Below are positions 11,911-28,650 of a DNA stretch of 64,000 nt, piece by piece. Location: contig NC_015730.1 of NCBI RefSeq assembly GCF_000154785.2, positions 4,115,501 through 4,179,500 of the forward strand, read 5' to 3'. The notes under the pieces were generated by a model. It searched no databases. It had not been told where the DNA came from and worked only from the letters and a program-made list of their open reading frames with translations. Position 1 is the first letter of the stretch; every line of letters starts with the position of its first letter. Both the position numbers and the translations under genes were made by a program. This stretch comes from Roseobacter litoralis Och 149 (lineage in GTDB: Bacteria > Pseudomonadota > Alphaproteobacteria > Rhodobacterales > Rhodobacteraceae).

Positions 11911-11929
11911 CCCGAAAGTTACCTGTTTC

Positions 11930-13876: not shown

Positions 13877-14001
13877 AGGCTGACCTTACATAAAAGTGGT
13901 GACATACGCCCCAAAATGGCAACACTTCGGTGAGAGCGCGAAACCCGCGTGTCTGACAAACTGGCTTGACAGGCACGCGCCTATTCGCCTCTATGACCTA
14001 A

Positions 14002-14017
14002 GTAACCGAATGGTGCA
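14002..14017. promoter_or_regulatory. Candidate operator of the island-wide regulon (site 1)
   Basis: GTAAC-CGAATG-GTGCA, 16 bases before the start of the ABC importer operon. The left half matches the regulon consensus exactly; the right half is the GTGCA variant also found at 19828-19843. Confidence 0.5.
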
Positions 14018-14032
14018 TTTTGGGAGGACATC

Positions 14033-15283
14033 ATGAAGAAAATGATAAAAGGCGCTTTGATCGCCAGCACATGCCTTATGGGTGCGGCACAGATCGCGCA
14101 GGCAGAAGATGTAGAAGTTCTGCATTGGTGGACGTCGGGTGGTGAAGCCTCCGCTCTGAATGTCCTCAAGCAAGACCTTGAAGGACAGGGGATCGGCTGG
14201 ACCGACATGCCCGTTGCGGGCGGCGGCGGCGAACAGGCGATGACTGTTTTGCGCGCGCGGGTCACCGCAGGAAACGCCCCCACGGCGGTGCAGATGCTGG
14301 GTTTCGATATTCTGGACTGGGCCGATCAGGGTGCATTGGCGGATCTGAACGCCACTGCTGCTGAACAGGGCTGGGATGACGTAGTGCCGGACGCATTGAA
14401 AGCCTTTGCCAAAGTCGACGGCAAATGGGTTTCGGCCCCGGTCAATGTGCATTCGACCAACTGGGTCTGGGCCAATAAATCCGTGCTGGATGCCAATGGT
14501 ATCGCCGTGCCGGAAACATGGGATGATTTCGTCGCGGCTGTGAACACGCTGAGCGCTGCAGGCATCACACCGATCGCGCATGGCGGACAAGCCTGGCAGG
14601 ACGCGACCGTATTTGACGCGGTGGCCATGTCCACGGGCGGACCCGAATTCTACAAAGCCGCCTTTGTCGATCTTGATCCCGACACGTTGAACAGCGACAC
14701 GATGGTCGAAACCTTCAACCGGATGGCTTTTATCCGCGACAATGTGGATGATAACTTCTCGGGCCGTGACTGGAACCTTGCCACCGCCATGGTCATGAAT
14801 GGCGAAGCTGGTTTCCAGATGATGGGCGACTGGGCCAAGGGCGAATTCCTGAATGCGGGTAAAGTACCGGGCGAGGATTTCCTCTGCTTCCGCTTCCCCG
14901 GCACACAGGATCAGGTCACCTTCAACGCGGATCAGTTCGCGATGTTTGATCAGGGTGGTGAAGTCTCTGCTGAACAGGCTGCCTTAGCCAGCGCGATCCT
15001 GTCGCCGTCCTTTCAGGTCGCCTTCAACAAGGTCAAAGGCTCCGTGCCTGCGCGGACCGACGTCGATGGCAGCGATCTGGACGCCTGTGGTCAACAGGGA
15101 ATGAAAGACCTTGCAGCTGCCGCGTCCAGCGGCAATCTGTTCGGCTCCATGGCGCATGGCCATGCAGCACCAGCATCTGTGAAAAACGCGGTCTACGATG
15201 TGGTCACCGCGCATTTCAATGGCGAATATGATGCGGCCACCGCTGCAGAAGAACTCGCCACCGCTGTAGAAATCGCTCAGTAA
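14033..15283 (+). CDS. ABC transporter sugar-binding protein (extracellular family 1)
   Basis: A 416-residue periplasmic binding protein with a signal peptide ending near AQA-EDVE. It resembles the glucose/mannose-type binding proteins of the GtsABCD group: [17 protein letters not shown] near the start and a [13 protein letters not shown] segment. It would deliver a mono- or oligosaccharide-like ligand to the permeases encoded next. GGGAGG precedes ATG 14033. A candidate regulon operator lies just upstream and a terminator-like hairpin follows, which would give a higher level of binding protein than of permease. The ligand cannot be told from sequence. Confidence 0.9.
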
Positions 15284-15291
15284 TACGAAAT

Positions 15292-15322
15292 GGCCTGATC
15301 CCTGACCGGGGTCAGGCCTTTG
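15292..15322 (+). terminator. Intra-operon hairpin between binding-protein and permease genes
   Basis: GGCCTGA (15292-15298) pairs with TCAGGCC (15312-15318), with extra CCC/GGG pairing inside and TTTG after. It probably stabilises the upstream message or partly terminates transcription. Confidence 0.55.
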
Positions 15323-15337
15323 CCAACGGGGGACCCT

Positions 15338-16231
15338 ATGGCGGACACGTCCAGCCCGGACATGCGCACGCGTTTGCAGAACTGGTTGCCCAAACTGGTT
15401 CTTGCGCCGTCTTTTGCGTTGGTTCTGTTCTTTGTCTACGGGTTCATCGTTTTCACGATCTATCTGAGCTTTTCTGACAGTAGGTTGTTGCCATCCTATG
15501 GGCTGGTCGGCTGGGAAAACTATTCCAAACTTTTCCGGCTCAGCCACTGGGAAACCGCGATCACGAACCTCGCGATTTTTGCCACGCTATATATCGTGAT
15601 CTGCTCGGTCATCGGGTTGCTGCTCGCAATCCTGCTGGATCAGAAAATCCGTGGCGAAGGGATGCTGCGCCCCATTTACCTCTATCCGATGGCGTTGTCT
15701 TTTATTGTCACGGGCACGGCGTGGAAATGGATGCTGGACCCCGGAATCGGCATCGAGAACACGATGCATCTGTGGGGCTGGGAAAGTTTTGCCTTTGACT
15801 GGATCAAGAACCGGGACTACGCGATTTACACGGTTGTTTTGGCGGCGGTCTGGCAAAGCTCCGGCTTTACCATGGCGATGTTTCTGGCGGGGCTGCGCGG
15901 CATCGACAATGAAATCCTCAAGGCGGCGCAGATGGATGGCGCCTCCAATTGGCAGCTATACCGGCGTATCATCATTCCGCAATTGCGCCCGGCGTTCTTG
16001 TCGGCCTTTGTCATCCTGAGCCATCTGGCGATCAAATCTTACGACCTCGTGATTGCCCTGACCGGCGGTGGGCCGGGTCGCGCCACCGAACTGCCTGCCA
16101 CGTTCATGTATTCCTATACCTTCAGCCGCAACCAGATGGGCATCGGCGCATCCTCAGCCGTGATCATGCTGATGACGGTCGCGGCGATCATGGTGCCCTA
16201 TCTCTATGCCGAACTGAAGGAGAAGAAGTAA
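15338..16231 (+). CDS. Sugar ABC transporter permease 1 (UgpA/MalF type)
   Basis: A 297-residue inner-membrane permease with six predicted helices and the EAA loop AAQMDGASNWQLYRRIIIPQLRP, which contacts the ATPase. It is one half of the import channel working with the next permease. ATG 15338 is chosen because GGGGGA lies at a good distance before it; an in-frame TTG 18 bases upstream is less likely. The stop codon overlaps the next start (TAATG), so the two permeases are coupled. Confidence 0.92.
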   Translation: MADTSSPDMRTRLQNWLPKLVLAPSFALVLFFVYGFIVFTIYLSFSDSRLLPSYGLVGWENYSKLFRLSHWETAITNLAIFATLYIVICSVIGLLLAILLDQKIRGEGMLRPIYLYPMALSFIVTGTAWKWMLDPGIGIENTMHLWGWESFAFDWIKNRDYAIYTVVLAAVWQSSGFTMAMFLAGLRGIDNEILKAAQMDGASNWQLYRRIIIPQLRPAFLSAFVILSHLAIKSYDLVIALTGGGPGRATELPATFMYSYTFSRNQMGIGASSAVIMLMTVAAIMVPYLYAELKEKK

Positions 16232-17112
16232 TGGCCATCGCTTCTTCTGAAAACGCCATGCGCAGCGGGCGCTTTACCCGAACCTTGATTTACCTGCTGC
16301 TGCTGCTCTTTGCGCTCTTCTACCTCTTGCCGCTCTTCGTGATGTTGGTGAACTCCCTAAAACCGCTGAGCGAAATCACCGGGGGCAATATGATGGCCCT
16401 GCCCGATGTCTGGACGATCCAACCGTGGCTGTCCGCGTGGTCCACCGCTCAGATCGGGGTAGATCCGACGGGGTTAAAACCCTATTTCCTCAATTCCATC
16501 GCGATGGCCTTGCCCGCTGTTTTGCTCTCGACTTTTTTCGGCGCGTTGAACGGTTATGTCCTGACCAAATGGCAGTTCCGTGGCCATAATATCGTTTTTG
16601 GCTTGCTGCTCTTTTCCTGCTTCATTCCGTTTCAGATCGTCCTTATCCCCATGGCGCAAAGCCTCGGTGTGCTGGGTCTTGCAGGGTCCACCGCTGGCCT
16701 GATACTTGTGCATTTTGTATACGGCATCGGTTTTACCACGCTCTATTTCCGCAACTACTACGCCGCCTTTCCGACCGAGCTGGTGCGCGCTGCGCAGATA
16801 GACGGCGCGGGGTTCTTCCGTATCTTCTGGCGCATCCTGTTACCTTCGTCGGGTCCGATCATTGCGGTCAGTTTCATCTGGCAGTTCACCAACATCTGGA
16901 ATGACTTTCTGTTCGGGGCCAGCTTTGCGGATGCCGACAGCCAACCGATGACCGTGGCGCTGAACAACCTGGTCAGTTCTTCGACCGGGGTGAAAGAATA
17001 CAACGTGCATTTTGCCGGTGCGATCATGGCGGCCCTGCCGACGCTGGTCGTCTATGTAGTTGCGGGGCGATATTTTGTCCGTGGCCTGATGGCCGGGTCA
17101 GTAAAAGGATAA
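16231..17112 (+). CDS. Sugar ABC transporter permease 2 (UgpE/MalG type)
   Basis: A 293-residue permease with six predicted helices and the EAA loop AAQIDGAGFFRIFWRILLPSSGP. It pairs with permease 1 to form the channel of a glycoside-type importer. The start ATG 16231 shares a base with the stop codon of permease 1. The ATPase gene begins three bases after its stop codon. Confidence 0.92.
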   Translation: MAIASSENAMRSGRFTRTLIYLLLLLFALFYLLPLFVMLVNSLKPLSEITGGNMMALPDVWTIQPWLSAWSTAQIGVDPTGLKPYFLNSIAMALPAVLLSTFFGALNGYVLTKWQFRGHNIVFGLLLFSCFIPFQIVLIPMAQSLGVLGLAGSTAGLILVHFVYGIGFTTLYFRNYYAAFPTELVRAAQIDGAGFFRIFWRILLPSSGPIIAVSFIWQFTNIWNDFLFGASFADADSQPMTVALNNLVSSSTGVKEYNVHFAGAIMAALPTLVVYVVAGRYFVRGLMAGSVKG

Positions 17113-17115
17113 GAT

Positions 17116-18219
17116 ATGGGCTTTCTGGATATTGCAAACGTCACAAAATCCTATGGCAGCACCGAGGTTCTGCATCAGGTGGATGTCTCCGTGGCTGAGG
17201 GCGAATTTCTGGTGCTGGTGGGCCCATCCGGCTGCGGAAAATCGACACTGTTGAACATGATTGCAGGGCTGGAAGACATCACCAGCGGGACCATCGCGAT
17301 CAAGGGTCAGCCGATGAATGGCGTGCATCCGTCCAAGCGCAACATCGCGATGGTGTTTCAGTCTTACGCGCTTTACCCGAATATGACCGTCGGGCAGAAC
17401 ATCACCTTTGGTCTTGAGATGCATGGCGTCCCCAAGGATGAACGCGCCGCTGCGATGGATAAGGTCGCGGATATGTTGCAGATCACGCCATTGTTGAACC
17501 GCAAACCCGGTCAGTTGTCCGGTGGGCAACGCCAAAGGGTTGCGATGGGTCGTGCGCTGGTGCGCAACCCGGATGTGTTCCTGTTTGACGAACCATTGTC
17601 GAACCTTGATGCCAAGCTGCGCGTCGACATGCGCACTGAGATCAAGAAACTCCATCAGCGGCTTGGTACGACCATCGTTTATGTCACCCATGACCAAATT
17701 GAAGCGATGACCCTGTCCACGCGGATTGCCGTGATGAACGGTGGTTATGTGCAGCAACTGGGCACCCCCAAAGAAATCTATGACGATCCTGCGAATGTGT
17801 TTGTGGCCAGCTTCATGGGCTCACCTTCGATGAATCTCATACCGGCAATTTTGCGCCGTACGGGTGGTGCCGCAGTGGCCGAAATCACGGATGCCACCGG
17901 CGCACCAGTGTTGCTGCCCGTCGCGGTCGATCAGGGGCAGGACGGCAGCGCAGTCCTGTTGGGCATTCGCCCTGAAGCAGTGACGGACCCGGAAGGGGCT
18001 GACAAAAAGGCACGTAATGTGGTGTCGTTGAAGAACCGCATCGATGTAACCGAGCCTGCAGGTTCAGATACTTTCATCACGACCCGTTTTGGCGGCAAAG
18101 ATGTGGTCGGCCGCATGCGCGCCGATGCAGAGGCATACCCCGGCGAAATTGCAGAATTGGCGCTCAACATGGACAAAGCGGTGCTTTTCGATCCCAAGAC
18201 CGAAGACCGGTTGCGGTGA
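17116..18219 (+). CDS. Sugar ABC transporter ATP-binding protein (UgpC/MalK type)
   Basis: A 367-residue ATPase with Walker A GPSGCGKST near residue 37, signature LSGGQRQRVAMGRA, Walker B FLFDEPLSNLDAKLR, H-loop VTHD and a C-terminal OB-fold (TOBE) region from about residue 240, the MalK architecture. It energises the importer encoded just upstream. Homologues of this class can energise several sugar permeases. The hydrolase gene follows 40 bases on and may share the transcript. Confidence 0.94.
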   Translation: MGFLDIANVTKSYGSTEVLHQVDVSVAEGEFLVLVGPSGCGKSTLLNMIAGLEDITSGTIAIKGQPMNGVHPSKRNIAMVFQSYALYPNMTVGQNITFGLEMHGVPKDERAAAMDKVADMLQITPLLNRKPGQLSGGQRQRVAMGRALVRNPDVFLFDEPLSNLDAKLRVDMRTEIKKLHQRLGTTIVYVTHDQIEAMTLSTRIAVMNGGYVQQLGTPKEIYDDPANVFVASFMGSPSMNLIPAILRRTGGAAVAEITDATGAPVLLPVAVDQGQDGSAVLLGIRPEAVTDPEGADKKARNVVSLKNRIDVTEPAGSDTFITTRFGGKDVVGRMRADAEAYPGEIAELALNMDKAVLFDPKTEDRLR

Positions 18220-18259
18220 TGCACCAGAGCCAGCAAGCGATCAGGGGTCAAAATACGGC

Positions 18260-19060
18260 ATGACGCTGAGCTATTGGAACAAGCAGTTTCAGTTTTCCAA
18301 GCTGCTGCCGGACTTTCAGAACTGTCTGGACGGGATGCAAACCCGCAGCGAAAACATCGCTGACGTTCTTTCATTGCAGCGGCACGCCTATGGGAGACAC
18401 CCGCGACAATGGGTCGAACTCTCGGGTCAACCGACGCGTAGTAATGTGTTACCGGTGTTCATCCACGGTGGTTATTGGCGCGCGCTTGAAGCCAAGCGGC
18501 ATCGCTTTGTCTTGCCACCTCTCAAGACACTGAACGGCGCCGTGGCCAATGTCGAATACCGCCTGATGCCGGAGGTCGGCCTCAAAGATATAGTTGAGGA
18601 CGCTTGCGCCGCCCTCCAACTCCTTAAGCAGCAAACAGGGTGCCAGCTGTTTCCAATTGGTCATTCAGCGGGCGGCCACCTTGCTGTGATGGCGGCGCGG
18701 CTGCTGCCGGATGACGTGGTCGGGGCGATGGCGATCAGCGGGCTATACGAGCTTGAGCCCCTGCACTGGTCGTTCCTGCGCGACGAAATCGGGCTGACCA
18801 CGGACAGTTTCGAAGGGTGTGAGCCACAAAAGTTGTGGGCAGGGCACGATGCGTCGCATCTTGTTTTGGCTGTCGGCGGAAACGAAACCGCAGAATTCCA
18901 CCGTCAGGCGCAGGTGTTTGCCGCATCCCGCGGGGCGCAGGTTATGCAGGTTCCCGGCGCACATCACATGAGCGTTCTGGATGATCTGGCGCAAACGGAC
19001 GGAGTTTTGCACGAGGTTTTGCGCGAGCTTGACCCTTTCAAGGCTGACCGGGGCCTATAG
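18260..19060 (+). CDS. Alpha/beta hydrolase (arylformamidase/esterase-like)
   Basis: A 266-residue alpha/beta hydrolase. The oxyanion-hole motif HGGYW and nucleophile motif GHSAGGH are both visible, and the final histidine is probably that of GAHHMS. This combination is typical of kynurenine-formamidase-like carboxylesterases. With no tryptophan-degradation genes nearby and a sugar importer directly upstream, an ester- or lactone-hydrolysing role in the catabolic island is more likely, by inference. Start ATG 18260 is preferred; the frame is open upstream inside the ATPase gene. Its stop overlaps the convergent TetR gene by six bases. Confidence 0.8.
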   Translation: MTLSYWNKQFQFSKLLPDFQNCLDGMQTRSENIADVLSLQRHAYGRHPRQWVELSGQPTRSNVLPVFIHGGYWRALEAKRHRFVLPPLKTLNGAVANVEYRLMPEVGLKDIVEDACAALQLLKQQTGCQLFPIGHSAGGHLAVMAARLLPDDVVGAMAISGLYELEPLHWSFLRDEIGLTTDSFEGCEPQKLWAGHDASHLVLAVGGNETAEFHRQAQVFAASRGAQVMQVPGAHHMSVLDDLAQTDGVLHEVLRELDPFKADRGL

Positions 19061-19714
19061 GGTATCAGCGCGAACCAGCCGCATGATCGTGTCGAGGTTA
19101 AAGGCCAACCGCTCTTTCAGTGCCTCAGGCGTCATCAGATCCCGTTCAAACACAATCGTTCCGGTGAAACGGTTGGTCAGGTAGTAATAGCCAATCGCGG
19201 CAATCGTGATGTTAAGCTGCGTGGCATCAATACCCGGACGGAAAACGCCCTCCTTCACACCGCGATCCAACAGGGATTGCATCATGGCAACGAATTTGCG
19301 ACTGGCGACGGCGATCACTTCGGACTTCTTGAGGTGGCGCGCGCGGTGCAGGTTTTCGCTGTTCACCAGCGTGATGAACTCGGGGTGCTTCAAGTAGTAA
19401 TCCCAGGTGAACCGCACGAGGTGTTCCAGCGCTTGTTCCGCAGGCATGCTCTCGAGATCCAGCTTTTGCTCAGCGTTCCTGATGTCGAGGTATGCCGCTT
19501 CGAGTACAGCTTTGAACAGCTTCTCCTTGGAGCCGAAGTAGTGATAGATCATGCGTTTGTTGGCTTTCGCACGCTCCGCAATCTCGTCCACGCGCGCTCC
19601 GCCCAGCCCATGCTTGGCGAATTCCTTTTTTGCAGCCTGCATGATGCGGAGTTTGGTCGCATCTGCATCACGTGTTTTGCGCTTTTCGGTCACTGCTGTT
19701 TTTACCCTGATCAT
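19055..19714 (-). CDS. TetR/AcrR-family transcriptional regulator, candidate regulator of the island
   Basis: A 219-residue TetR-type regulator. The N-terminal helix-turn-helix is clear (IMQAAKKEFAKHG ... VDEIAERAKANKRMIYHYFGSKEKLF), followed by an all-helical ligand-binding domain. ATG at 19714 is chosen; a TTG at 19762 would add 16 residues unlike the family start. It is transcribed divergently from the alcohol dehydrogenase gene, and two overlapping candidate operators lie between them (19828-19858). The same 16-bp site is found before four other transcription units of the island, which makes this protein the likely repressor of all of them. The ligand is probably a pathway intermediate, perhaps an acyl-CoA or a sugar derivative. 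Confidence 0.9.
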   Translation of the reverse strand: MIRVKTAVTEKRKTRDADATKLRIMQAAKKEFAKHGLGGARVDEIAERAKANKRMIYHYFGSKEKLFKAVLEAAYLDIRNAEQKLDLESMPAEQALEHLVRFTWDYYLKHPEFITLVNSENLHRARHLKKSEVIAVASRKFVAMMQSLLDRGVKEGVFRPGIDATQLNITIAAIGYYYLTNRFTGTIVFERDLMTPEALKERLAFNLDTIMRLVRADTL

Positions 19715-19827
19715 TGGTGCGAAACACGATGTCACCCTATGACAAACTGCGACGGGCGTCAAAGACCAGCAGGTGTGGCGCGCGGCTTCACTATTCCTCG
19801 TTGTTTATGTTCTTTTTGCACTGAAAG

Positions 19828-19843
19828 GTAACTGATAAGTGCA
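19828..19843. promoter_or_regulatory. Candidate operator of the regulon (site 2, TetR/ADH intergenic)
   Basis: GTAAC-TGATAA-GTGCA. One perfect half-site, with the GTGCA variant as the other half. It abuts site 3, giving a 31-bp double site between the divergent TetR and alcohol dehydrogenase genes. Confidence 0.5.
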
Positions 19844-19858
19844 TTGCATATCGGTTAC
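19843..19858. promoter_or_regulatory. Candidate operator of the regulon (site 3, TetR/ADH intergenic)
   Basis: ATTGC-ATATCG-GTTAC. The right half is perfect; read on the other strand it is GTAAC-CGATAT-GCAAT. It shares one base with site 2. Confidence 0.5.
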
Positions 19859-19918
19859 TTTGGACCGGACCGGCCGGTGCGAAAAACCGTTCAAGGCTTG
19901 TGGAACGGGGGCGAATAT

Positions 19919-20947
19919 ATGATGCGTGCAGCAATATTGATGAGACCGGGACGTTTTGAACTGCAAGACAGGCCGGTCCCGACCCCGGGCATGGGCGAGG
20001 TTTTGATACGCATCGCGCGTGTGGGCATCTGTGGCACCGACATTCATATTTTTAACGGGCATTATGCAGCGGATAGTCTGCCAATGATTCCGGGTCATGA
20101 ATTCACGGGTACGATTGAGGCCCTCGGCCCTGACGTGACCGGGCTGCGTATCGGTGACAAGGCAGTCGTTGATACAAATGTTGGCTGTGGCACCTGTTAC
20201 TGGTGTCGCCGCAATGAAATCCTGAACTGCCCTGAGATGCGCCAGATGGGGATCAGCATGGACGGGGCCTTTGCCGAATACATCGTGGTTCCGGGCCGGC
20301 TGGTTATCCCGGCACCTGCGCATATGCCGTTTGAGGTGCTCGCGCTGACCGAACCGCTGGCCTGCGTTGTGCGCGCTGCGCGGAAAGCCAATGTGACCTT
20401 TGGTCAATCCGTCGCCGTGCTGGGGGCGGGTCCGATCGGGCATTTGCATGTGCAACTGCTGCGCACCATTGGCGCGGCACCCATCATTGTGACGGATATT
20501 TCGCCGGACCGCGTGGCGCTTGCGCTCAGACACGGTGCAGATGTCGGGGTCAGTGATCCCGCCGACGTCAAGGCCTGCGTGATGCAAGCGACCGAGGGGC
20601 GCGGCGCAGATATCGTGATTGAAAGCGTGGGGCTACCAGCGCTTTACCAACAAGCGTTGCAGTTGATCCGCAAGGGCGGCCATGTGGCAGCCTTTGGCCT
20701 GACCGGCGCGGGCGAGGTATTGCCTGTCGATATTCTGACGACCATTTTGCAGGAAAACTCGATCAAGGGGTCCGTTGCAGGCTCCGGGCAGGATATGCAT
20801 GACGCGCTGAATTTTCTGGTGCATGGTCGGATTGATCCCACGCCGTTTCTGGGGGCGGAATACGCGCTGGACGACATTCAGACCGCATTTGACACATTCA
20901 AGGATCGACCGGATGATCTGAAAACGCAAATTGTCATGTCGGATTAA
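19919..20947 (+). CDS. Zinc-binding alcohol/polyol dehydrogenase (MDR family)
   Basis: A 342-residue medium-chain dehydrogenase of the sorbitol/threonine dehydrogenase class. Catalytic zinc ligands are seen in GICGTD and GHEFTG. The structural zinc cysteines lie in GCGTCYWCRRNEILNC, and the NAD(P) site is GAGPIGHLHV. It should oxidise a secondary alcohol of a polyol or sugar-like substrate to a ketone. ATG 19919 (or the adjacent 19922) follows GGGGGC; earlier in-frame starts would include the operator region. It is divergent from the TetR gene and is followed after 15 bases by the cupin gene. Confidence 0.9.
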   Translation: MMRAAILMRPGRFELQDRPVPTPGMGEVLIRIARVGICGTDIHIFNGHYAADSLPMIPGHEFTGTIEALGPDVTGLRIGDKAVVDTNVGCGTCYWCRRNEILNCPEMRQMGISMDGAFAEYIVVPGRLVIPAPAHMPFEVLALTEPLACVVRAARKANVTFGQSVAVLGAGPIGHLHVQLLRTIGAAPIIVTDISPDRVALALRHGADVGVSDPADVKACVMQATEGRGADIVIESVGLPALYQQALQLIRKGGHVAAFGLTGAGEVLPVDILTTILQENSIKGSVAGSGQDMHDALNFLVHGRIDPTPFLGAEYALDDIQTAFDTFKDRPDDLKTQIVMSD

Positions 20948-20962
20948 AAAAGGAAAACGATC

Positions 20963-21532
20963 ATGTCCATCACCACCGAAAGCTATGCATCTGCCCCGAA
21001 TGGCAAGATACCCAACAGTCGTTTTCCCCTGCTGGTGCATCGCAATGCCGTGCCGGGTGGCGGTGCCGAGGCGATCAAAACGCGCTTTCGTGAAAATGGA
21101 TGGTCGAATAACTGGGACTATCCGGGCGTATACGAATATGCCCATTTCCATTCGACAACGCATGAATGCCTTGGCTGTGCGCGGGGATGGATGGAATTTA
21201 ACCTCTCGGTGGGCGATGGCGGTTGGACACAGGTGCGTATCGAAGCGGGCGACGTGATTGTTATGCCTGCCGGTGTCAGCCACGAAATGATCGGCCAGTC
21301 AGAAGATATTCACATGTGCGGTGGCTATCCCGATGGGCGCGATTGGGATGACATACAAGAAGAATTCCTCAGCGACGAAGATTACAAACGCGCCTGCAAG
21401 CGCATCATGATGCTGCCCATTCCGGCCCGCGATCCGGCGACAGGCAAGGCGATGCCTGAATGGCACGGCGCACCCTCCTCTGTCGATGGTGGCTGGAACG
21501 ACTGGCGGCATGCGCTCGACAAACGGGAGTGA
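20963..21532 (+). CDS. Cupin-domain protein (YjlB-like)
   Basis: A 189-residue cupin. The metal-binding segment YAHFHSTTHECLGCARG (about residues 54-70) supplies two or three histidines and a glutamate, and the second cupin motif is VIVMPAGVSHEMI. The sequence resembles YjlB-type cupins of unknown function. As part of an oxidative sugar-like pathway it may act as an isomerase or mutarotase on a keto or lactone intermediate; this is a guess from context. AGGAAAA precedes ATG 20963, and it is probably co-transcribed with the alcohol dehydrogenase gene. Confidence 0.78.
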   Translation: MSITTESYASAPNGKIPNSRFPLLVHRNAVPGGGAEAIKTRFRENGWSNNWDYPGVYEYAHFHSTTHECLGCARGWMEFNLSVGDGGWTQVRIEAGDVIVMPAGVSHEMIGQSEDIHMCGGYPDGRDWDDIQEEFLSDEDYKRACKRIMMLPIPARDPATGKAMPEWHGAPSSVDGGWNDWRHALDKRE

Positions 21533-21570
21533 GCAGCGGACTTGATTATGTCCAGCGTTGCCTGTACCAA

Positions 21571-21586
21571 ATAACCATATGGTTAC
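21571..21586. promoter_or_regulatory. Candidate operator of the regulon (site 4, before the GMC oxidoreductase gene)
   Basis: ATAAC-CATATG-GTTAC, flanked by AA and TTA. It has the same CATATG centre as site 7. It lies 140 bases before the chosen start of the GMC gene and 39 bases after the cupin gene. Confidence 0.65.
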
Positions 21587-21710
21587 TTATAGGCACCCCT
21601 GATCATGAGCACTTTCTGCATAAAAGGCCGCACAGTGTGGGCATGGGTCGCCTTGCTTGACCCTGATGTCGACATTGACCTTCAAACGCGCAGTATGGGG
21701 GTCGCATAAG

Positions 21711-23315
21711 GTGGCGCAGGGCTATGACTATATCATCGTGGGCGGTGGATCAGCCGGGTGCGTTCTGGCAAACCGTTTGACGCAAGACGCAAGCGTCCGG
21801 GTGTTGTTGCTGGAGGCAGGCGGCAATGATCGCCATCCGTTCATCCATATGCCCGTCGGGTTCGCAAAGATGACGACCGGCCCGCACACCTGGGGCCTGA
21901 CGACCGCGCCGCAGAAACACGCCAACAACCGCGAAATTCCATATGCGCAGGCGCGGGTCATCGGCGGTGGATCGTCGATCAATGCCGAGGTTTTTACCCG
22001 TGGCCACCCCAGCGATTACGACCGCTGGGCGCAGGAAGAGGGCTGCGACGGCTGGGCATTTGACGATATCCGCAAGTATTTCATCCGCTCCGAAGGCAAC
22101 ACGGTTTTTGCAGGCGAGTGGCACGGCACGGAAGGTCCCTTGGCGGTATCGAGCCTGAATGCGCAACCGATGACCCTTGCATTCGTGCGCTCCTGTCAGG
22201 AACGGGGCATCCCGTTCAACCCCGATTTCAACGGCGCGGTGCAGGAAGGCGCTGGCGTCTATCAGACCACCACAAGGAATGCGCGGCGCTGTTCTGCAGC
22301 GGTGGGGTATCTCAAACCGGTGATGCATCGGCCCAATCTGACCGTGCGCATGAATGTTCTGGTCAAGCGCGTTGTCGTTGAAAAGGGGCGTGCGACGGGC
22401 GTCGATATCTGGTCCGCAAAAACTGGCCGTGAAACGGTGCACGCGGATCAGGAGGTCATCGTTACGACAGGGGCAATCGGCACGCCGAAGCTGATGATGT
22501 TGTCGGGGCTGGGACCGGCGGCACATCTGAAGGCCCATGGGATAGACGTGCAGGCGGACTTGCCGGGCGTTGGCGAAAACCTCACCGATCATTTTGGTAT
22601 TGATATCGTGGCGGAATTGAACGGACACGACAGCCTCGACAAATACAACAAACCGCATTGGGCGCTTTGGGCGGGCTTGCAATACATGGCTTTTCGCACC
22701 GGTCCCGTGGCGTCCAATGTGGTTGAGGGGGGTGCCTTCTGGTATGCGGATCCCACCGCCGCAACGCCCGATTTGCAGTTCCATTTTCTGGCCGGGGCCG
22801 GAGCTGAAGCGGGTGTGCCATCTGTGCGACCCGGCGCGTCCGGCATTACCCTCAACAGCTATACGCTACGGCCCAAATCCAGAGGGACGGTGCGGCTGCG
22901 CTCTGCTGACCCAAAGGATACGCCGATCATTGACCCGAATTTTCTGGGCCACCCGGATGATCTGAAAACCTCTGTCGAGGGCGTTAAAACAAGCCGGGAG
23001 ATTTTCGCGCAACCCAGCCTGCAAAAGTACATCCGCGCGGTGCGCTTTCCCGATGACAGCGTGCAAACGCAGGCAGAGTATGAGGCCTATGCGCGCGCCT
23101 TTGGTCGCACCTCATATCACCCGACGTGCACGTGCAAAATGGGGTCTTCCGATGACCCGATGGCGGTGGTTGATCCACAGTTGCGGGTGCGCGGCGTGGA
23201 CGGTCTGCGCCTATGCGACAGTTCGGTCATGCCGTCCCTGATCGGGTCAAACACCAATGCCCCGACGATTATGATCGGCGAGAAAGCCGCAGATATGATC
23301 CGCGGCAATCACTGA
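21711..23315 (+). CDS. GMC-family FAD oxidoreductase (choline dehydrogenase-like)
   Basis: A 534-residue glucose-methanol-choline oxidoreductase. The FAD-binding GGGSAG segment comes right after YDYIIV at the N-terminus. The GMC signature region RVIGGGSSINAEVFTRG is present, and the catalytic histidine and asparagine lie in SYHPTCTCKMG and SNTNAPTIMIGEKAAD. It should oxidise a primary or secondary alcohol, passing electrons to a quinone or oxygen. I chose GTG 21711 because homologues begin a few residues before YDYIIV and GGGGG precedes it; ATG 21666 and TTG 21657 are alternatives. A candidate regulon operator lies upstream. Confidence 0.9.
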   Translation: MAQGYDYIIVGGGSAGCVLANRLTQDASVRVLLLEAGGNDRHPFIHMPVGFAKMTTGPHTWGLTTAPQKHANNREIPYAQARVIGGGSSINAEVFTRGHPSDYDRWAQEEGCDGWAFDDIRKYFIRSEGNTVFAGEWHGTEGPLAVSSLNAQPMTLAFVRSCQERGIPFNPDFNGAVQEGAGVYQTTTRNARRCSAAVGYLKPVMHRPNLTVRMNVLVKRVVVEKGRATGVDIWSAKTGRETVHADQEVIVTTGAIGTPKLMMLSGLGPAAHLKAHGIDVQADLPGVGENLTDHFGIDIVAELNGHDSLDKYNKPHWALWAGLQYMAFRTGPVASNVVEGGAFWYADPTAATPDLQFHFLAGAGAEAGVPSVRPGASGITLNSYTLRPKSRGTVRLRSADPKDTPIIDPNFLGHPDDLKTSVEGVKTSREIFAQPSLQKYIRAVRFPDDSVQTQAEYEAYARAFGRTSYHPTCTCKMGSSDDPMAVVDPQLRVRGVDGLRLCDSSVMPSLIGSNTNAPTIMIGEKAADMIRGNH

Positions 23316-23334
23316 CATCGGCAGAGCATCCGGG

Positions 23335-24153
23335 TCAGTCAAAATCGGGTGCCCATGGCACGATATCCTTGCTCACGATGCGGTAATTCATATGCGTCAT
23401 ATGCTCGATCCGCGTCATATCGACCGAGGACAACGTGAAATCCATCACATCGAAGTTCGCCGCGATATTCTCGGGTTTGGTGGACATCGTGTTGATGCTG
23501 ACGCCTTTTTGCAGGATCCAGCGCAGCACGACCTGTGCCGCGGTTTTGCCATAGCCTGCGCCAATCTCGGCAAAGATCGGATGTTTGAACACCTCACCAC
23601 GTGCAACTGAACAGTAGGACGACAGCGGGATACCGGTTTCGGATGCGGCGGCCAGCATGACGTCTTGGTTCAGCAGCGGGTGGAATTCGATCTGATTTGT
23701 CACAAGGGGCGTTTCGATAATCTTGGTCGCATCGCGCATCATCTGGACTGTGTAATTCGACACGCCAATGTTGCGGGCCATGCCCCGTTTATATGCTTGT
23801 TCCAGCAAGGTCAGCGAGCCTTTGATCTGGAAATCCGCAGGCGGCCAATGCAGCAGCAAAACGTCCACGTAATCCAACTGCAAAGCTTTCAGGCTTGCCT
23901 CCACAGAGGCGAGGAATTTCCCCTCATCAAAGTTATCATTCTCCACCTTTGTCGTCACGCAGAGCGTATCACGCGGAATGCCCGTTTCTTTCAGTGCGGC
24001 ACCGGTCTCGGCTTCATTCCTGTACATCTGCGCGGTATCAAACGCGCGATAGCCAACTTCGGCGGCAGTGAGAATGGCGTCTCTGCATGCAGCACCTTTG
24101 AGAGGATAAGTACCAAAAGACCGTTGGTTTGTATTTTTGAAATAGATGTTCAT
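23335..24153 (-). CDS. Aldo/keto reductase (AKR, 2,5-diketogluconate reductase type)
   Basis: A 272-residue aldo/keto reductase with the full catalytic tetrad: Asp and Tyr in FDTAQMYRNE, Lys in TTKVE and His in LLLHWPP. The NADPH-binding C-terminal part ends with STKPENIAANFDV. The small size and the sequence style match the prokaryotic AKR5-like reductases that act on keto sugars and small carbonyls. It is transcribed away from the CoA-transferase gene; two candidate regulon operators lie between the two genes. The reverse reaction (alcohol oxidation) is also possible in a catabolic setting. Confidence 0.9.
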   Translation of the reverse strand: MNIYFKNTNQRSFGTYPLKGAACRDAILTAAEVGYRAFDTAQMYRNEAETGAALKETGIPRDTLCVTTKVENDNFDEGKFLASVEASLKALQLDYVDVLLLHWPPADFQIKGSLTLLEQAYKRGMARNIGVSNYTVQMMRDATKIIETPLVTNQIEFHPLLNQDVMLAAASETGIPLSSYCSVARGEVFKHPIFAEIGAGYGKTAAQVVLRWILQKGVSINTMSTKPENIAANFDVMDFTLSSVDMTRIEHMTHMNYRIVSKDIVPWAPDFD

Positions 24154-24180
24154 GACGCGCCTTCCATAACTACGATATTT

Positions 24181-24196
24181 GTAACTTAATAGTTAC
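24181..24196. promoter_or_regulatory. Candidate operator of the regulon (site 5)
   Basis: GTAAC-TTAATA-GTTAC, both halves perfect, 28 bases upstream of the aldo/keto reductase start on the minus strand. Confidence 0.65.
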
Positions 24197-24251
24197 TTAT
24201 TTGAAAGTATGAAAGAGTCTTGATCGTATGGTGGATTGTGGGCATAGTCTT

Positions 24252-24267
24252 TTAACCAAACAGTTAC
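24252..24267. promoter_or_regulatory. Candidate operator of the regulon (site 6)
   Basis: TTAAC-CAAACA-GTTAC, in a T-rich and A-rich setting, 36 bases before the CoA-transferase start. It pairs with site 5 in the same divergent promoter region. Confidence 0.6.
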
Positions 24268-24302
24268 TTAAAATACATCGCTGCAATGCCACGGAAGATT
24301 CT

Positions 24303-25886
24303 ATGCCCAAGATTATGACAGCACGCGATGCGGCTGACCTCATCCCCGATGGTGCCACTGTGGCAGTTAATTCCTCCAGCGGGCTGTGCTGTCCCGATGC
24401 CGTTCTAAAGGGCATCGGCGAGAGATTTGACGTGGTCGGGCACCCACGGAACCTGACCACGATTCACCCCATCGCAGCGGGTGATTTCTTTGGCACCAAG
24501 GGTATCGACCACATCGCGAAAAAGGGCTGTCTATCACGGATCATCGGCGGCTCCTATCCGTCGGGTCCGACCAAGGCGGAACCCCCGTTGATATGGCAGA
24601 TGATCGTGGCCGAAGAGGTCGCAGCCTATAACGTACCGTCCGGTATTGTCTTTGACATGCTGCGCGAGGGGGCGGCAAAGCGGCCGGGTGTCTTGACCAA
24701 AGTGGGTATGGAAACCTTTGTCGATCCGCGGCTTGAAGGCTGCGCGATGAACGGTGAGGCGCGCAAGACACCGATCGTTCAGCTTCGCGATTTTGAGGGC
24801 GAAGAATGGCTCTATTTCAAATCGATCCAGCCTGATGTGGCGATCATCCGCGCTACAACCGCCGATACACGCGGCAACCTCAGTTTCGAACACGAGGGGG
24901 CCTACCTTGGGGCGATGGAAATGGCACTGGCCGCGCGCAACAGCGGGGGCACGGTCATCGCACAGGTCAAGCGGATTGCGGCGGCAGGGTCCATTCGACC
25001 CCATGACGTGACCGTGCCGGGCATTCTGGTCGATGTGATCGTTGAAGCGCCGGATCAGCTGCAAACCACCGCAACGGAATATGACCCGGCGATCTCAGGC
25101 GAATTGACCCGACCGATGGACAGTTTCAGCGCTGTGGATTTCAACATCGGCAAGGTGATCGCGCGCCGTGTTGCGCTCGAGATGCAACGCGGCTGGGCAG
25201 TGAACATCGGGTTCGGGATATCGGCAAATGTACCGCGTATTTTCGTTGAAGAGGGCTGCCACAATGACGTCACCTGGATGATCGAACAGGGCGCAGTCGG
25301 GGGTGTGCCGCTGCTTGATTTCAAATTCGGCTGCGCGGCCAATGCCGAGGCCTTTGTCGCCTCACCGCATCAGTTCTGCTATTTTCAGGCGGGTGGTTTT
25401 GATTGCTCGCTCTTGTCATTTCTCGAGGTCGGCGCGGATGGGTCCGTCAACGTCTCGCGCCTGTCAGCGGTGCCGCACCGCACTGCGGGGGCGGGCGGGT
25501 TCGTGGACATCACCGCACGCGCAAAGAAAATCGTCTTTTCAGGTATGTTCAATGCCGGGGCCAAAATGCGGATCGAGAACGGCGAAATCGTGATCGACCA
25601 CGAGGGCAAAGTAGCAAAATTTGTTGATCAGGTGGATCAGGTGTCTTTCTCAGGCAAACGCGCCATCGCGCAGGGGCAGGACATCACCTATATCACCGAG
25701 CGCTGCGTGATGAAGCTGGACGAACAGGGTCTGATCGTGACCGAAATTGCACCCGGCCTCGATATTGACCGGGATGTGGTTGGTCAGGCGGCGACGCCTC
25801 TGCGCGTGGCACCGGACCTCAAGGTCATGGATGCCGGTTTGTTCCGCGACGCGCCGATTGATCTGGCCGGGCGTTTGTCGGCATGA
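24303..25886 (+). CDS. Acyl-CoA:carboxylate CoA-transferase (family I, alpha-beta fused, YdiF-like)
   Basis: A 527-residue family I CoA-transferase with both subunits in one chain. The N-terminal half has the SSSGLCCPDAVLKGI segment. The predicted catalytic glutamate is in MIEQGAVGGVP in the second half, the position that forms the glutamyl-CoA thioester in YdiF-type enzymes. It would activate a carboxylic acid produced by the island's oxidative enzymes by moving CoA from acetyl-CoA or another donor. Start ATG 24303 is chosen for the GGAAGA ribosome site; an earlier in-frame start would overlap operator site 6. The next gene overlaps its stop codon by four bases. Confidence 0.9.
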   Translation: MPKIMTARDAADLIPDGATVAVNSSSGLCCPDAVLKGIGERFDVVGHPRNLTTIHPIAAGDFFGTKGIDHIAKKGCLSRIIGGSYPSGPTKAEPPLIWQMIVAEEVAAYNVPSGIVFDMLREGAAKRPGVLTKVGMETFVDPRLEGCAMNGEARKTPIVQLRDFEGEEWLYFKSIQPDVAIIRATTADTRGNLSFEHEGAYLGAMEMALAARNSGGTVIAQVKRIAAAGSIRPHDVTVPGILVDVIVEAPDQLQTTATEYDPAISGELTRPMDSFSAVDFNIGKVIARRVALEMQRGWAVNIGFGISANVPRIFVEEGCHNDVTWMIEQGAVGGVPLLDFKFGCAANAEAFVASPHQFCYFQAGGFDCSLLSFLEVGADGSVNVSRLSAVPHRTAGAGGFVDITARAKKIVFSGMFNAGAKMRIENGEIVIDHEGKVAKFVDQVDQVSFSGKRAIAQGQDITYITERCVMKLDEQGLIVTEIAPGLDIDRDVVGQAATPLRVAPDLKVMDAGLFRDAPIDLAGRLSA

Positions 25887-26638
25887 TTGATCTAAGCGTT
25901 CAGGATGGCATCGCGCGATTGGTTTTGAACCGACCCGACAAACTGAACGCGCTTACCGCTGAAATGTGCGATATGCTGGCCGCCAGATGTCGGGAAATCG
26001 AACGCAGCACCGCCCGCATCGTGATCCTGTCGGGCGCGGGCAAAGCGTTTTGTGCAGGTGGCGACATCGAAGCCTGGGCCGGTGAAACGCCCGAAGCCTT
26101 CGGGGATCATTGGGTGCGGGATGGGCACATCGCGTTCGATGCGCTGGCCCGATTGACCGTGCCGGTAATCGCACAACTGGATGGTCACGCGCTCGGTGGC
26201 GGCCTAGAACTGGCTGCCTGCGCCGACCTGCGCATCGCGGAGCAGCACATCAAGATCGGTCAGCCGGAAACCGGGCTTGGTATCATTCCGGGTTGGTCTG
26301 GCACACAACGTGCGGTACGCCGGTTTGGTGGCCAAGTCGTCCGTCGCATGGCGCTCTTCGGTGAAGTCTTTGACGCTGAAGAAGCCCGCCGTCTGGGTCT
26401 CGTCGATCATGTGACTGCCACGGGTGCGGCGCATGTTCTGGCAGAAGACCTCGCCGCGCGTGTGCTGAGCCGTGGGCCGCAGGCGACGAAACTGACCAAG
26501 ATGCTGATCAATGCCGCAGATCGCGAAGACCCCGAGCGGATCGCCGAGGCTTTGGCAGGGCGTATCGCAGCGGGCACGGATGAGTTGCGCGAGGGCCTGT
26601 CGGCTTTTCGCGAAAAACGAAAACCAGATTTCTCCTGA
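25883..26638 (+). CDS. Enoyl-CoA hydratase/isomerase family protein (crotonase fold)
   Basis: A 251-residue crotonase. The CoA-binding region GAGKAFCAGGDIEAWAG and the oxyanion region GHALGGGLELAACADLRIA are present. The first catalytic glutamate of hydratases is kept (GQPETGLG), but where the second is expected the sequence reads VVRRMALFG, with arginine in place of glutamate. It may therefore be an isomerase, hydrolase or C-C lyase of the superfamily rather than a standard hydratase. It is translationally coupled to the CoA-transferase gene (ATGA), so it probably acts on the newly made CoA ester. Confidence 0.87.
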   Translation: MIDLSVQDGIARLVLNRPDKLNALTAEMCDMLAARCREIERSTARIVILSGAGKAFCAGGDIEAWAGETPEAFGDHWVRDGHIAFDALARLTVPVIAQLDGHALGGGLELAACADLRIAEQHIKIGQPETGLGIIPGWSGTQRAVRRFGGQVVRRMALFGEVFDAEEARRLGLVDHVTATGAAHVLAEDLAARVLSRGPQATKLTKMLINAADREDPERIAEALAGRIAAGTDELREGLSAFREKRKPDFS

Positions 26639-26650
26639 AAGGACACAGAT

Positions 26651-26962
26651 ATGATCCGACATTCTGTTCACCTGCGTTTTCGCGCGGATGTTACCGAGGC
26701 TGAAAAAATGTCTCTCTATGATGCCCTCGCGGGCCTATCGGGTCACATAGACGGTATCGTGGATTTTCAGCACCGCAAGAACGTCTCGGTCGAAACTCCG
26801 CTGGTGCGCGGTTTCCTCGACATGTTCTGGTTCGACTTTCGCGACACATCGGTGCGGGACACATATCTTGTCGATCCGGAACATCAGGCCATCGGGGCAC
26901 GCATCGTCGCAACACTTGAGGGTGGTGCAGAAGGCGTGTTTGTCTGTGACGTCGGGCTGTAA
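26651..26962 (+). CDS. Dabb-family (stress-responsive A/B barrel) protein
   Basis: A 103-residue dimeric alpha/beta-barrel (Dabb) protein beginning MIRHSVHLRFRADVT, with the family's first-strand histidine. Such proteins often act as small pathway enzymes or helpers in catabolic clusters. It follows the crotonase gene by 12 bases with AAGGAC as ribosome site. Its substrate is unknown. A long palindromic element starts just after its stop codon. Confidence 0.8.
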   Translation: MIRHSVHLRFRADVTEAEKMSLYDALAGLSGHIDGIVDFQHRKNVSVETPLVRGFLDMFWFDFRDTSVRDTYLVDPEHQAIGARIVATLEGGAEGVFVCDVGL

Positions 26963-26967
26963 ACGGG

Positions 26968-27078
26968 CCTAAAGCGTCATGCGAAAAACCTGAATCACGT
27001 AACGCTGCCTGAAATCAAAGATTTCAACGCGTTACGTGATACTTGATGTCTCAGGTATTTCGTCAGACGCTCTAAAGG
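26968..27078. repeat. Long palindromic element (REP/MITE-like) between convergent genes
   Basis: The two arms, 26969-27005 and the complement of 27029-27077, align over nearly their whole length with a few gaps. The perfect core is ATCACGTAACGC (26994-27005) facing GCGTTACGTGAT (27029-27040). An inner stem TGAAATC/GATTTCA (27010-27016/27020-27026) closes on a 3-base loop. Outer ends carry AAAGCGTC and GACGCTCTAAAG. The right end supplies the stop codon of the MaoC gene. It can serve as a bidirectional terminator. The form suggests a dispersed repeat, but I see no second copy in this window. Confidence 0.7.
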
Positions 27079-27518
27079 TCGAAAATAAGACCGTTTTCGC
27101 CTTCCTGAACAATGTCACCATGCTGGTTCATGGCCTGTGCCGTGATCTTTGTAATGCCGCGCTTACCGTTTGCGGTCAGGCGTTTTTCACGGATTACAAA
27201 CTTTGCAGAAATCGTATCACCGGCCAGAACCGGCGCGACGAACCGCCATGTCCAGCCCAGTGAGGCCAGCGCGTCAAAACGGGCTGGCGCGTTGTTTTTC
27301 AATCCATCAATGACGGCCAGAACCAACAATCCATGGGCGACGCGCCGTTCGAACCCTTTGGCCTGCGCAGCCGCGTCCGACATATGGATTTCGTAGGTAT
27401 CGCCGCTGACACGCGCAAAATCGTCTATTAACTCCGCCGTAATCACGCGTGCGCTTGTCACGAGGCAATCACCGCTTGCCAGATCGTGATACCCGTAACT
27501 GCCCGGCGAGAGGTTCAT
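27072..27518 (-). CDS. MaoC-like hotdog dehydratase
   Basis: A 148-residue MaoC-type (R)-hydratase of the hotdog fold. The hydratase 2 motif reads VSGDTYEIHMSDAAA, so the catalytic Asp and His are present, although the usual Asn-Pro is Tyr-Glu. GFERRVAHGLLVLAVIDGL follows. It would hydrate or dehydrate an enoyl-CoA or related CoA ester. It is coupled by a four-base overlap to the aldo/keto reductase gene upstream on the same strand. Its stop codon lies within the right end of the palindromic element. Confidence 0.85.
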   Translation of the reverse strand: MNLSPGSYGYHDLASGDCLVTSARVITAELIDDFARVSGDTYEIHMSDAAAQAKGFERRVAHGLLVLAVIDGLKNNAPARFDALASLGWTWRFVAPVLAGDTISAKFVIREKRLTANGKRGITKITAQAMNQHGDIVQEGENGLIFDL

Positions 27519-28531
27519 ACCGGCACCGGCGCGTCAGTGCGCAGCAGCCCGTCGTGTTTTAGCTCGGCCCAGAAATCGGCTGGAATTTCATGGCGGAACC
27601 GATTCAGGTTCTGCTCCAACTGCGCGATGGTCCGCGTGCCTGCGATAAAGGATGGAATTGCGGGGTGTGCGACGACGAATTGCAAGGCCGCTGCGGGCAA
27701 TGGCACCTGATGGTCCGCACATACCGCCTCGATCTTTGCGACGCGGTCCATGATCTCTGCAGGGGCGGGCGCATAGTTGTATTTGGCACCCTCACGGGCA
27801 CCCGTTGCCAGAATTCCGGAGTTGAAGCCACCACCGACAACGACTGCTGCACTGCGCGCTTCACACATCGGCAAGAACGTATCCTGCGCCTCTTGCTCCA
27901 GCAGTGTGTAGCGCCCGGCCAGCAGGAAACAGTCAAAATCACGCGCCTCAAGGGCCGCCTGACAGACCTGCCATTCGTTTACGCCGACGCCAATCGCTGA
28001 AACGACACCCTCATCGCGCAATTTGGCCAACGCTTTCCACGCGCCATCCATGGCCTGTTTAAAGACGTCTGGCTGCGCGTCGCCACGGGTAAAAACGTCG
28101 ATATCGTGGATAAAACAGATATCCATCCGCTCAAGCGCCAACCGTTGCAGGCTGTCTTCAAAGGCGCGCATTGTGCCATCATAGGTATAGTCAAATTCAA
28201 GATTGAAAGGGGCCGCGTTCGTCCATGGAGCAAAGTCGATATCGTTCCGCTTTGCGGGAACGAGGCGACGCCCCACCTTTGATGACAGCACCAGATCATC
28301 GCGGTTCTTCCACCGCAGCGATTGGCCTGTGCGCAGTTCGGCAAGGCCGTGGCCGTACATGGGGGCTGTGTCATAATACCGGACGCCTGAATCCCATGCC
28401 GCCTGAAACATGCCGTCGGATGTCTCTTCGTCAATCTCGCGGAAAATGTTGCCCACCGGAGCTGTGCCAAACCCGAACGCGGTGACCTCAAGATCAACCC
28501 GGCCGAATTTATTCTTTGTCGCGGGGTCCAT
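27515..28531 (-). CDS. Aldo/keto reductase of the aldose 1-dehydrogenase type
   Basis: A 338-residue aldo/keto reductase close to D-threo-aldose/L-fucose dehydrogenases and AKR-type pyridoxal 4-dehydrogenase. The tetrad is visible: Asp and Tyr in YYDTAPMYGHG, Lys in LSSKVGR and His in CFIHDIDV. Enzymes of this type oxidise a cyclic hemiacetal to a lactone using NAD(P). ATG 28531 is chosen because GGAAGGA precedes it; in-frame starts further upstream would overlap operator site 7. The MaoC gene is coupled downstream. Confidence 0.88.
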   Translation of the reverse strand: MDPATKNKFGRVDLEVTAFGFGTAPVGNIFREIDEETSDGMFQAAWDSGVRYYDTAPMYGHGLAELRTGQSLRWKNRDDLVLSSKVGRRLVPAKRNDIDFAPWTNAAPFNLEFDYTYDGTMRAFEDSLQRLALERMDICFIHDIDVFTRGDAQPDVFKQAMDGAWKALAKLRDEGVVSAIGVGVNEWQVCQAALEARDFDCFLLAGRYTLLEQEAQDTFLPMCEARSAAVVVGGGFNSGILATGAREGAKYNYAPAPAEIMDRVAKIEAVCADHQVPLPAAALQFVVAHPAIPSFIAGTRTIAQLEQNLNRFRHEIPADFWAELKHDGLLRTDAPVPV

Positions 28532-28550
28532 CCCATATCCTTCCGAATAA

Positions 28551-28566
28551 GTAACCATATGGTTAA
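28551..28566. promoter_or_regulatory. Candidate operator of the regulon (site 7)
   Basis: GTAAC-CATATG-GTTAA, 20 bases upstream of the aldose-dehydrogenase-type gene on the minus strand. Together with site 4 it defines the best consensus. Confidence 0.65.
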
Positions 28567-28634
28567 TTGTGGCGGAGCAGGCAGCGCAAATCAAGTCTTG
28601 AATCGCTTGACGCCTCTTGGTTGTCTTCCTAATA

Positions 28635-28650
28635 GTAACTGAACGGTTAC
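28635..28650. promoter_or_regulatory. Candidate operator of the regulon (site 8)
   Basis: GTAAC-TGAACG-GTTAC, both halves perfect, 26 bases before the acyl-CoA dehydrogenase start. It shares a divergent promoter region with site 7. Confidence 0.65.

Follow-up and report, generated by a model that had tools for sequence, protein, structure and literature searches.

TetR-family proteins control a number of catabolic regulons in Proteobacteria; FadP, LiuQ, PsrA and RutR are listed as such regulators in the accessible part of PMC5343134. Here we analyze a 64,000-nucleotide stretch of Roseobacter litoralis Och 149 (the window, G000:C3:4115501-4179500 of a 4.745-Mb genome) that carries an 18.6-kb catabolic island with its own TetR-family gene, tetR (19055-19714, minus strand). 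The shared operator found in most promoters of this island is real. From its distribution we predict, with good confidence, that the TetR protein acts as local repressor for the island and for one unlinked gene. The predicted system shares with PsrA, FadP, LiuQ and RutR the TetR_N helix-turn-helix with a ligand domain, operators lying over target promoters, and target enzymes resembling those of beta-oxidation. No such regulon is described among the TetR regulators that the accessible part of PMC5343134 covers.

Operator sites and their conservation

Eight operator sites had been proposed by a sequence-only reading of the window, and seven of these stand. Five, all ahead of enzyme genes, have the symmetric form GTAAC-N6-GTTAC: ATAACCATATGGTTAC at 21571-21586 (plus strand) ahead of a GMC oxidoreductase gene; GTAACTTAATAGTTAC at 24181-24196 (minus strand), 27 bp upstream of the aldo/keto reductase gene AKR1; TTAACCAAACAGTTAC at 24252-24267 (plus strand), 35 bp upstream of a CoA-transferase gene; GTAACCATATGGTTAA, as read on the plus strand, at 28551-28566 (minus strand), 19 bp upstream of a second aldo/keto reductase gene, AKR2; and GTAACTGAACGGTTAC at 28635-28650 (plus strand), 25 bp upstream of an acyl-CoA dehydrogenase (ACAD) gene. 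The other two have the asymmetric form GTAAC-N6-GTGCA. One, GTAACCGAATGGTGCA at 14002-14017 (plus strand), lies ahead of the importer operon and is identical in the closest relative (G296); the other, GTAACTGATAAGTGCA at 19828-19843 (plus strand), lies between tetR and a divergent Zn-dependent alcohol dehydrogenase (Zn-ADH) gene and reads TGCACTTATCAGTTAC on the tetR strand. As had been claimed, each of the seven lies ahead of a gene, and gene pairs are divergent in three of the regions (tetR/Zn-ADH, AKR1/CoA-transferase and AKR2/ACAD). The eighth, a second overlapping site at 19843-19858 (plus strand), reads ATTGC-N6-GTTAC, fits neither proposed form and is unconserved in G296, where the GTAAC half is absent. 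The form quoted as the best, GTAACCATATGGTTAC, matches no exact core in the window and is a composite of the sites at 21571 and 28551. The statement that no site occurs elsewhere in the window is also incorrect, as an exact TAAC-N6-GTTA core is present outside the island at 11908-11921, at the end of the open reading frame (ORF) 10633-11910. This match is probably due to chance because one of its halves is lost in G296, and it was dropped as a regulon operator after this conservation check.

The genome-wide frequency of the sites was assessed with consensus patterns. The exact core occurs 16 times in the genome, and five of these copies fall in the island between 21572 and 28649, compared with about 0.06 expected in 18.6 kb (Poisson P ~8e-9); the sites are thus not at chance level. 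When one mismatch is allowed, the window holds 10 matches against 5.9 expected, a number reached by 8 of 100 shuffles, so that the enrichment of this loose pattern within the window is not significant by itself. For the asymmetric form, the case rests on conservation because at up to two mismatches it is unenriched in the window (38 matches against 46.5 expected). Among the 11 exact cores outside the island, four belong to one other repeated palindromic element, TAACGACGTCGTTA (G000:C3 1525811, 1824272, 3398864 and 4399889).

Conservation was analyzed in 36 chosen stretches taken from the window and its relatives, some genomes giving two, which were scanned within one mismatch. Altogether 93 sites were found, 83 of them within 170 bp upstream of an orthologous gene start and 10 elsewhere. 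Excluding three sites ahead of tetR and including those of the window, we obtained a set of 80 sites that carry 59 distinct spacers. Positions 2, 4, 5, 12 and 14-16 are invariant in this set, and positions 3 and 13 have one exception each. The spacer starts with Y (position 6) and ends with R (position 11) in 79 of the 80 sites, which refines the consensus to GTAAC-Y-N4-R-GTTAC. The constancy of the core arises partly by construction, since selection was made at up to one mismatch over the ten half-site bases, whereas the Y/R rule of the spacer does not. Such fixed half-sites around variable spacers suggest the footprint of a binding dimer. Phylogenetic footprinting, which had been proposed as a check, finds the sites kept in orthologous islands. 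Additional stretches were scanned separately and gave few sites or none; these are L057, L058, L061, L064 and L065 (the TetR side of G068, G125, G209, G228 and G101) and the TetR-less islands of G157, G064, G079, G242, G109 and G146. Several exact matches elsewhere in relatives (e.g. G029, G201, G056, G269 and G297) have unrelated or unidentified genes as neighbours and probably represent background.

A second set comprised 80 TetR-centred loci (1.46 Mb), the best 80 of 475 relatives, at least 13 of which overlap genomes already used. These loci contain 28 exact sites; 59 other letter orders of the half-site average 0.25 sites and give at most 4. A Y/R site within one mismatch occurs in 39 of the 80. 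A testable promoter is present in 26 loci, 24 of which have a site (up to one mismatch, without the Y/R rule). By promoter, sites were found at 15 of 15 second GMC genes, 6 of 7 ACAD, 5 of 5 CoA-transferase, 5 of 7 AKR1 and 2 of 2 AKR2 genes.

The position of the operator is consistent with repression. For 53 of 79 sites, a TTGA motif begins 25-40 bases upstream of the operator (mean 4.6 and maximum 11 in 500 shuffles), regularly so at the ACAD (15/15), CoA-transferase (20/23) and second GMC (4/4) promoters; it is also seen at SDR (2/3) and at the importer's solute-binding protein (SBP, 1/1). A spacer of about 17 bp would place the -10 element just upstream of or over the operator. For instance, ahead of ACAD the sequence reads as a -35 element TTGACG (28607-28612), a 17-bp spacer and a -10 element TAATAG (28630-28635) on the plus strand, with the operator starting at 28635. 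Similar pairs were read by eye 5' of the operators at 24252 (TTGATC 24220-24225 and CATAGT 24243-24248) and 14002 (TTGACA 13966-13971 and TCTATG 13990-13995). Because TTGA as a -35 element precedes 53 of 79 operators, these would lie at the -10 element or transcription start, where a repressor blocks initiation.

The TetR protein as candidate regulator

The island regulator (protein at 19058-19714; 93% identity in G296) combines a TetR_N helix-turn-helix (PF00440, 57.5 bits versus a cut-off of 24) with the C-terminal ligand-binding and dimerisation domain TetR_C_29 (PF17938, 140.6 bits versus 26.2). As in TetR repressors, palindromic operators lie near its own gene and at target promoters, the tetR-upstream site being an imperfect palindrome, and they are placed to block RNA polymerase except at AKR1. 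Orthologues (about 60% identity or more) were found in 21 of 295 genomes of the family, counting its own and a partial match in G139, followed by a gap down to 48%. Among 19 genomes of the genus (its own included), orthologues are present in G296, G305 and G309. The copy in G102 is a fragment at a contig end. Helix residues 51-55 read ANKRM without exception in the orthologues of at least 60% identity that cover them (23 sequences), and the same enzymes recur around many of the orthologues.

Across genomes the sites co-occur with TetR. The CoA-transferase has orthologues (at least 67%) in 28 of the 295 family genomes, its own included, and in three further genomes of the genus. A TetR orthologue is present in 23 of these 31 genomes, G139 and G102 having fragments of it. 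When one mismatch is allowed, the CoA-transferase/AKR1 promoter carries a site in 22 of the 23 islands with TetR, compared with three of the eight in which no TetR was detected. G157 and G164 have it at this promoter, and G227 has it 28 bp upstream of AKR1 on another contig; G064, G242, G109 and G146 have no site within one mismatch there. No site occurs in the six CoA-transferase paralogues of about 60% identity that were examined. The exact refined motif is found in 23 of 25 genomes with TetR and 5 of 33 without it among 58 chosen genomes, after setting aside the look-alike GTAACCC-N4-GGGTTAC (raw counts 23/25 and 7/33); two of the five TetR-less genomes, G227 and G164, carry the island. The look-alike occurs in G146, G125, G002, G025, G295 and G305, as a pair of copies separated by 26 to 193 bp in five of the six and as a single copy in G125, and is probably the operator of a different regulator.

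The asymmetric form is linked to the regulator gene itself. Of 24 orthologue loci, 18 have the pattern [CT]GCA[CT]-N6-GTTAC ahead of tetR, as do 72 of the 80 loci in the second set; none of 13 homologues below 60% identity has it (12 of them below 50%, the other being the G228 homologue at 59.8%). The tetR loci of the second set extend to the Rhizobiales, with Mesorhizobium, Shinella, Ensifer, Kaistia and Labrys. The suggestion that this TetR is the regulator thus gains support from the variant at its own gene and from the co-occurrence.

Several observations weigh against this assignment. The association in the 31 genomes (Fisher p 0.0018, or 0.0098 counting G079) is computed with a statistic that ignores shared ancestry. 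Sites are clearly present in G227 and G164, and one in G157, where no TetR orthologue was found; G079, also with no TetR found, has an exact palindrome that lacks the Y/R bases. The CoA-transferase side of G227 has no site within one mismatch. Among genomes with TetR, G029 has just a two-mismatch site at the CoA-transferase gene, and the refined motif is not matched exactly in G209 or G228. In the second set, a symmetric Y/R site is missing from 41 of 80 loci even at one mismatch; most of these have no testable promoter, and L210 and L213 hold testable promoters with no site. The Zn-ADH site occurs in just 2 of 14 loci; in G305, the Zn-ADH locus viewed closely, an importer separates tetR from Zn-ADH. 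Six of the 24 orthologue loci have no asymmetric site, one of them having only 5 bp of upstream sequence. The TTGA motif is absent at AKR1 (0/13) and less regular at GMC (2/4) and AKR2 (9/16). Because the assemblies of G227, G164 and G157 consist of 340, 90 and 260 contigs, their TetR genes may be unassembled.

The two or three TetR-less islands (G227, G164 and G157) would also fit a different arrangement, in which another transcription factor, encoded elsewhere, binds the enzyme-promoter sites and TetR controls itself and the divergent gene. The tetR-proximal and importer sites do differ in form from those of the enzyme promoters, and a LacI-family gene, named by eye, adjoins the importer in G139. 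We nevertheless regard this as unlikely, as GTTAC and the 11-bp half-site spacing are common to both forms, the sites track TetR across genomes, TetR is the sole regulator recognised among the annotated island genes, and the asymmetric site is seen upstream of this TetR orthologue group alone. Since TetR-family activators exist, TetR could instead act as an activator or dual regulator, as the AKR1 promoters, where TTGA is missing from the expected -35 position, might suggest; this is very improbable, given that the ACAD, CoA-transferase and second GMC operators lie 3' of TTGA at promoter distance, in a position blocking RNA polymerase. That the repeats are a product of chance or another element, such as terminators or nucleoid-protein sites, would agree with the one-mismatch pattern, which is not significantly enriched in the window (10 versus 5.9), and is contradicted almost completely by the half-sites, which more than 20 genomes retain around free spacers in constant positions ahead of the same genes.

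Gene content and proposed pathway

Under control by TetR as a repressor, its dimer would bind GTAAC-Y-N4-R-GTTAC at the enzyme promoters, over or just past the -10 element, and so prevent initiation, as the promoter geometry suggests. The asymmetric and probably weaker GTAAC-N6-GTGCA would be used at its own divergent promoter and the importer promoter. The most likely inducer, either the imported substrate or a CoA thioester that the island CoA-transferase would form, would release TetR and so switch on the importer, the oxidoreductases and the beta-oxidation-like enzymes together. The regulon would also take in the unlinked second GMC gene.

The importer genes are all on the plus strand and encode a sugar-type SBP (SBP_bac_1, PF01547; 14033-15283), two permeases (PF00528; 15320-16231 and about 16225-17112, together 15320-17112) and a MalK-type ATPase (PF00005 and PF17912; 17116-18219). 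They are followed by an alpha/beta hydrolase (18260-19060, plus strand; PF07859 in the frame from 18089, with the ATG start at 18260 set by eye). At the importer promoter, G296 has the identical site, G309 one whose spacer differs (GTAACCAAGTGGTTCA), and G139 a symmetric one, again with a different spacer (GTAACCCATCAGTTAC); since the site is kept through these changes, the importer appears to belong to the regulon. This supports the earlier proposal that the importer and the ACAD operon form one system. No such site was seen near five of the nine importer starts looked at. The importer is located downstream of the TIM barrel gene described below in G002, G209, G227 and G126. The importer promoters of G139 (L179 1680-2860) and G126 (L142 near 17858) share GTAACGTTATAAAT, and in G139 the LacI-like gene is divergent from the importer.

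To the right of tetR, the plus strand encodes the threonine or scyllo-inosose dehydrogenase-like Zn-ADH (19919-20947), a small cupin-like protein (20963-21532, below the Pfam cut-off) and the choline dehydrogenase-like GMC oxidoreductase (21663-23315). AKR1 (DkgB-like, 23335-24153, minus strand) is divergent from the FadX-like CoA-transferase (24303-25886, plus strand), whose start was set at 24303 rather than 24228 because the operator lies between. An enoyl-CoA hydratase (25883-26638) and a Dabb-domain protein (26651-26962) follow on the plus strand, converging with a MaoC-like dehydratase (27072-27518) and AKR2 (27515-28531) on the minus strand. An inverted repeat between the Dabb and MaoC genes (atcacgtaacg ... 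cgttacgtgat, 26990-27045) is likely a two-way terminator rather than an operator. The island ends, all on the plus strand, with ACAD (28676-29821), an SDR resembling 3-ketoacyl reductases (29818-30585), a DUF993 protein (PF06187; 30582-31745), named 'dihydrodipicolinate synthase family' in public records and 96% identical in G296, and a xylose-isomerase-like TIM barrel protein (31742-32602).

The regulon extent given by the sequence-only reading holds for the island sites and misses an unlinked target. The sole perfect GTAACYNNNNRGTTAC outside the island in the genome (G000:C3:3203816; L002 1501-1516) lies 17 bp upstream of the second GMC oxidoreductase gene, 0.93 Mb away. Because this operator is perfect, is kept in G296 with a different spacer, and accompanies a second-GMC homologue on the same stretch as tetR in G309 and G002, the predicted regulon extends beyond the island. 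The second GMC gene is divergent from an apparent TAXI-type TRAP receptor gene. Six other matches in the genome that keep the Y/R bases were not taken as members: two within long ORFs (3405592 and 1158398), two within shorter ORFs of 89 and 72 amino acids (627498 and 3947908), one between a TRAP receptor gene and an acyl-CoA-synthetase-like gene identified by eye (2207351), and a one-mismatch site, GCAACCATTCAGTTAC, ahead of a gene that by eye resembles fabI (G000:C3:2478148).

Gene content suggests that the substrate is sugar- or polyol-like, with its acid carried as a CoA ester and glycerate among the products. The island of G305 adds a ribose/arabinose-type importer and an aldehyde dehydrogenase, and those of G125 and G242 add a MOFRL protein that resembles glycerate-2-kinase and scores below the NCBIfam cut-off, the G242 island having neither TetR nor sites. 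More speculatively, the regulon might encode an undescribed CoA-dependent route for such a substrate, in which two operator classes stagger uptake and catabolism; we hold this fuller picture to be possible but rather doubtful. Here GMC and aldehyde dehydrogenases would form the acid, followed by CoA transfer, beta-oxidation-like steps and cleavage by a DUF993 aldolase with glycerate as a product, and symmetric operators would serve the enzymes and asymmetric ones the tetR and importer promoters.

Comparison with known systems

The solved DUF993 structure, 4dnh, is titled 'uncharacterized protein' and is, we assume, that of SMc04132. In the available part of a PhaR study, a table places SMc04132 of Sinorhizobium meliloti beside SMc04133 (an oxidoreductase) and SMc04135 (a peptide-type solute-binding protein) (PMC12542648). 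That part gives no function for this neighbourhood, whose likeness to the island comes from the gene listing, the operator aside. A literature search on DUF993, operator motif, regulon and gene-set terms, with RegPrecise outside its scope, found no paper on DUF993 or the motif and no study of this system.

The analysis yields an operator and a regulator, both precise and open to test, for a catabolic island. Its marker genes (TetR and CoA-transferase) are spread over more than 20 genera within a single family, and the tetR locus is present in Rhizobiales too. Because regulon members elsewhere in a genome are marked by the operator, it offers a way to gather the rest of the genes and to narrow the substrate and the role of DUF993; the search has already added an unlinked oxidoreductase.

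The mechanism is that of an ordinary, conventional TetR repressor regulon. The regulator scores below the cut-off of all 20 NCBIfam models that it matched, none of which is named FadP or LiuQ. By E-value its best match is ScbR (54.4 bits, far under the cut-off of 150); it reaches 50.8 of the 368 bits needed for the RutR equivalog, 34.9 of 300 for PsrA, 45.8 of 200 for Bacillus FadR and 25.9 of 247 for AcuR. Compared by such scores and by genes rather than by operator sequences, the system is distinguished from those of PsrA, FadP, LiuQ and RutR by its target genes.

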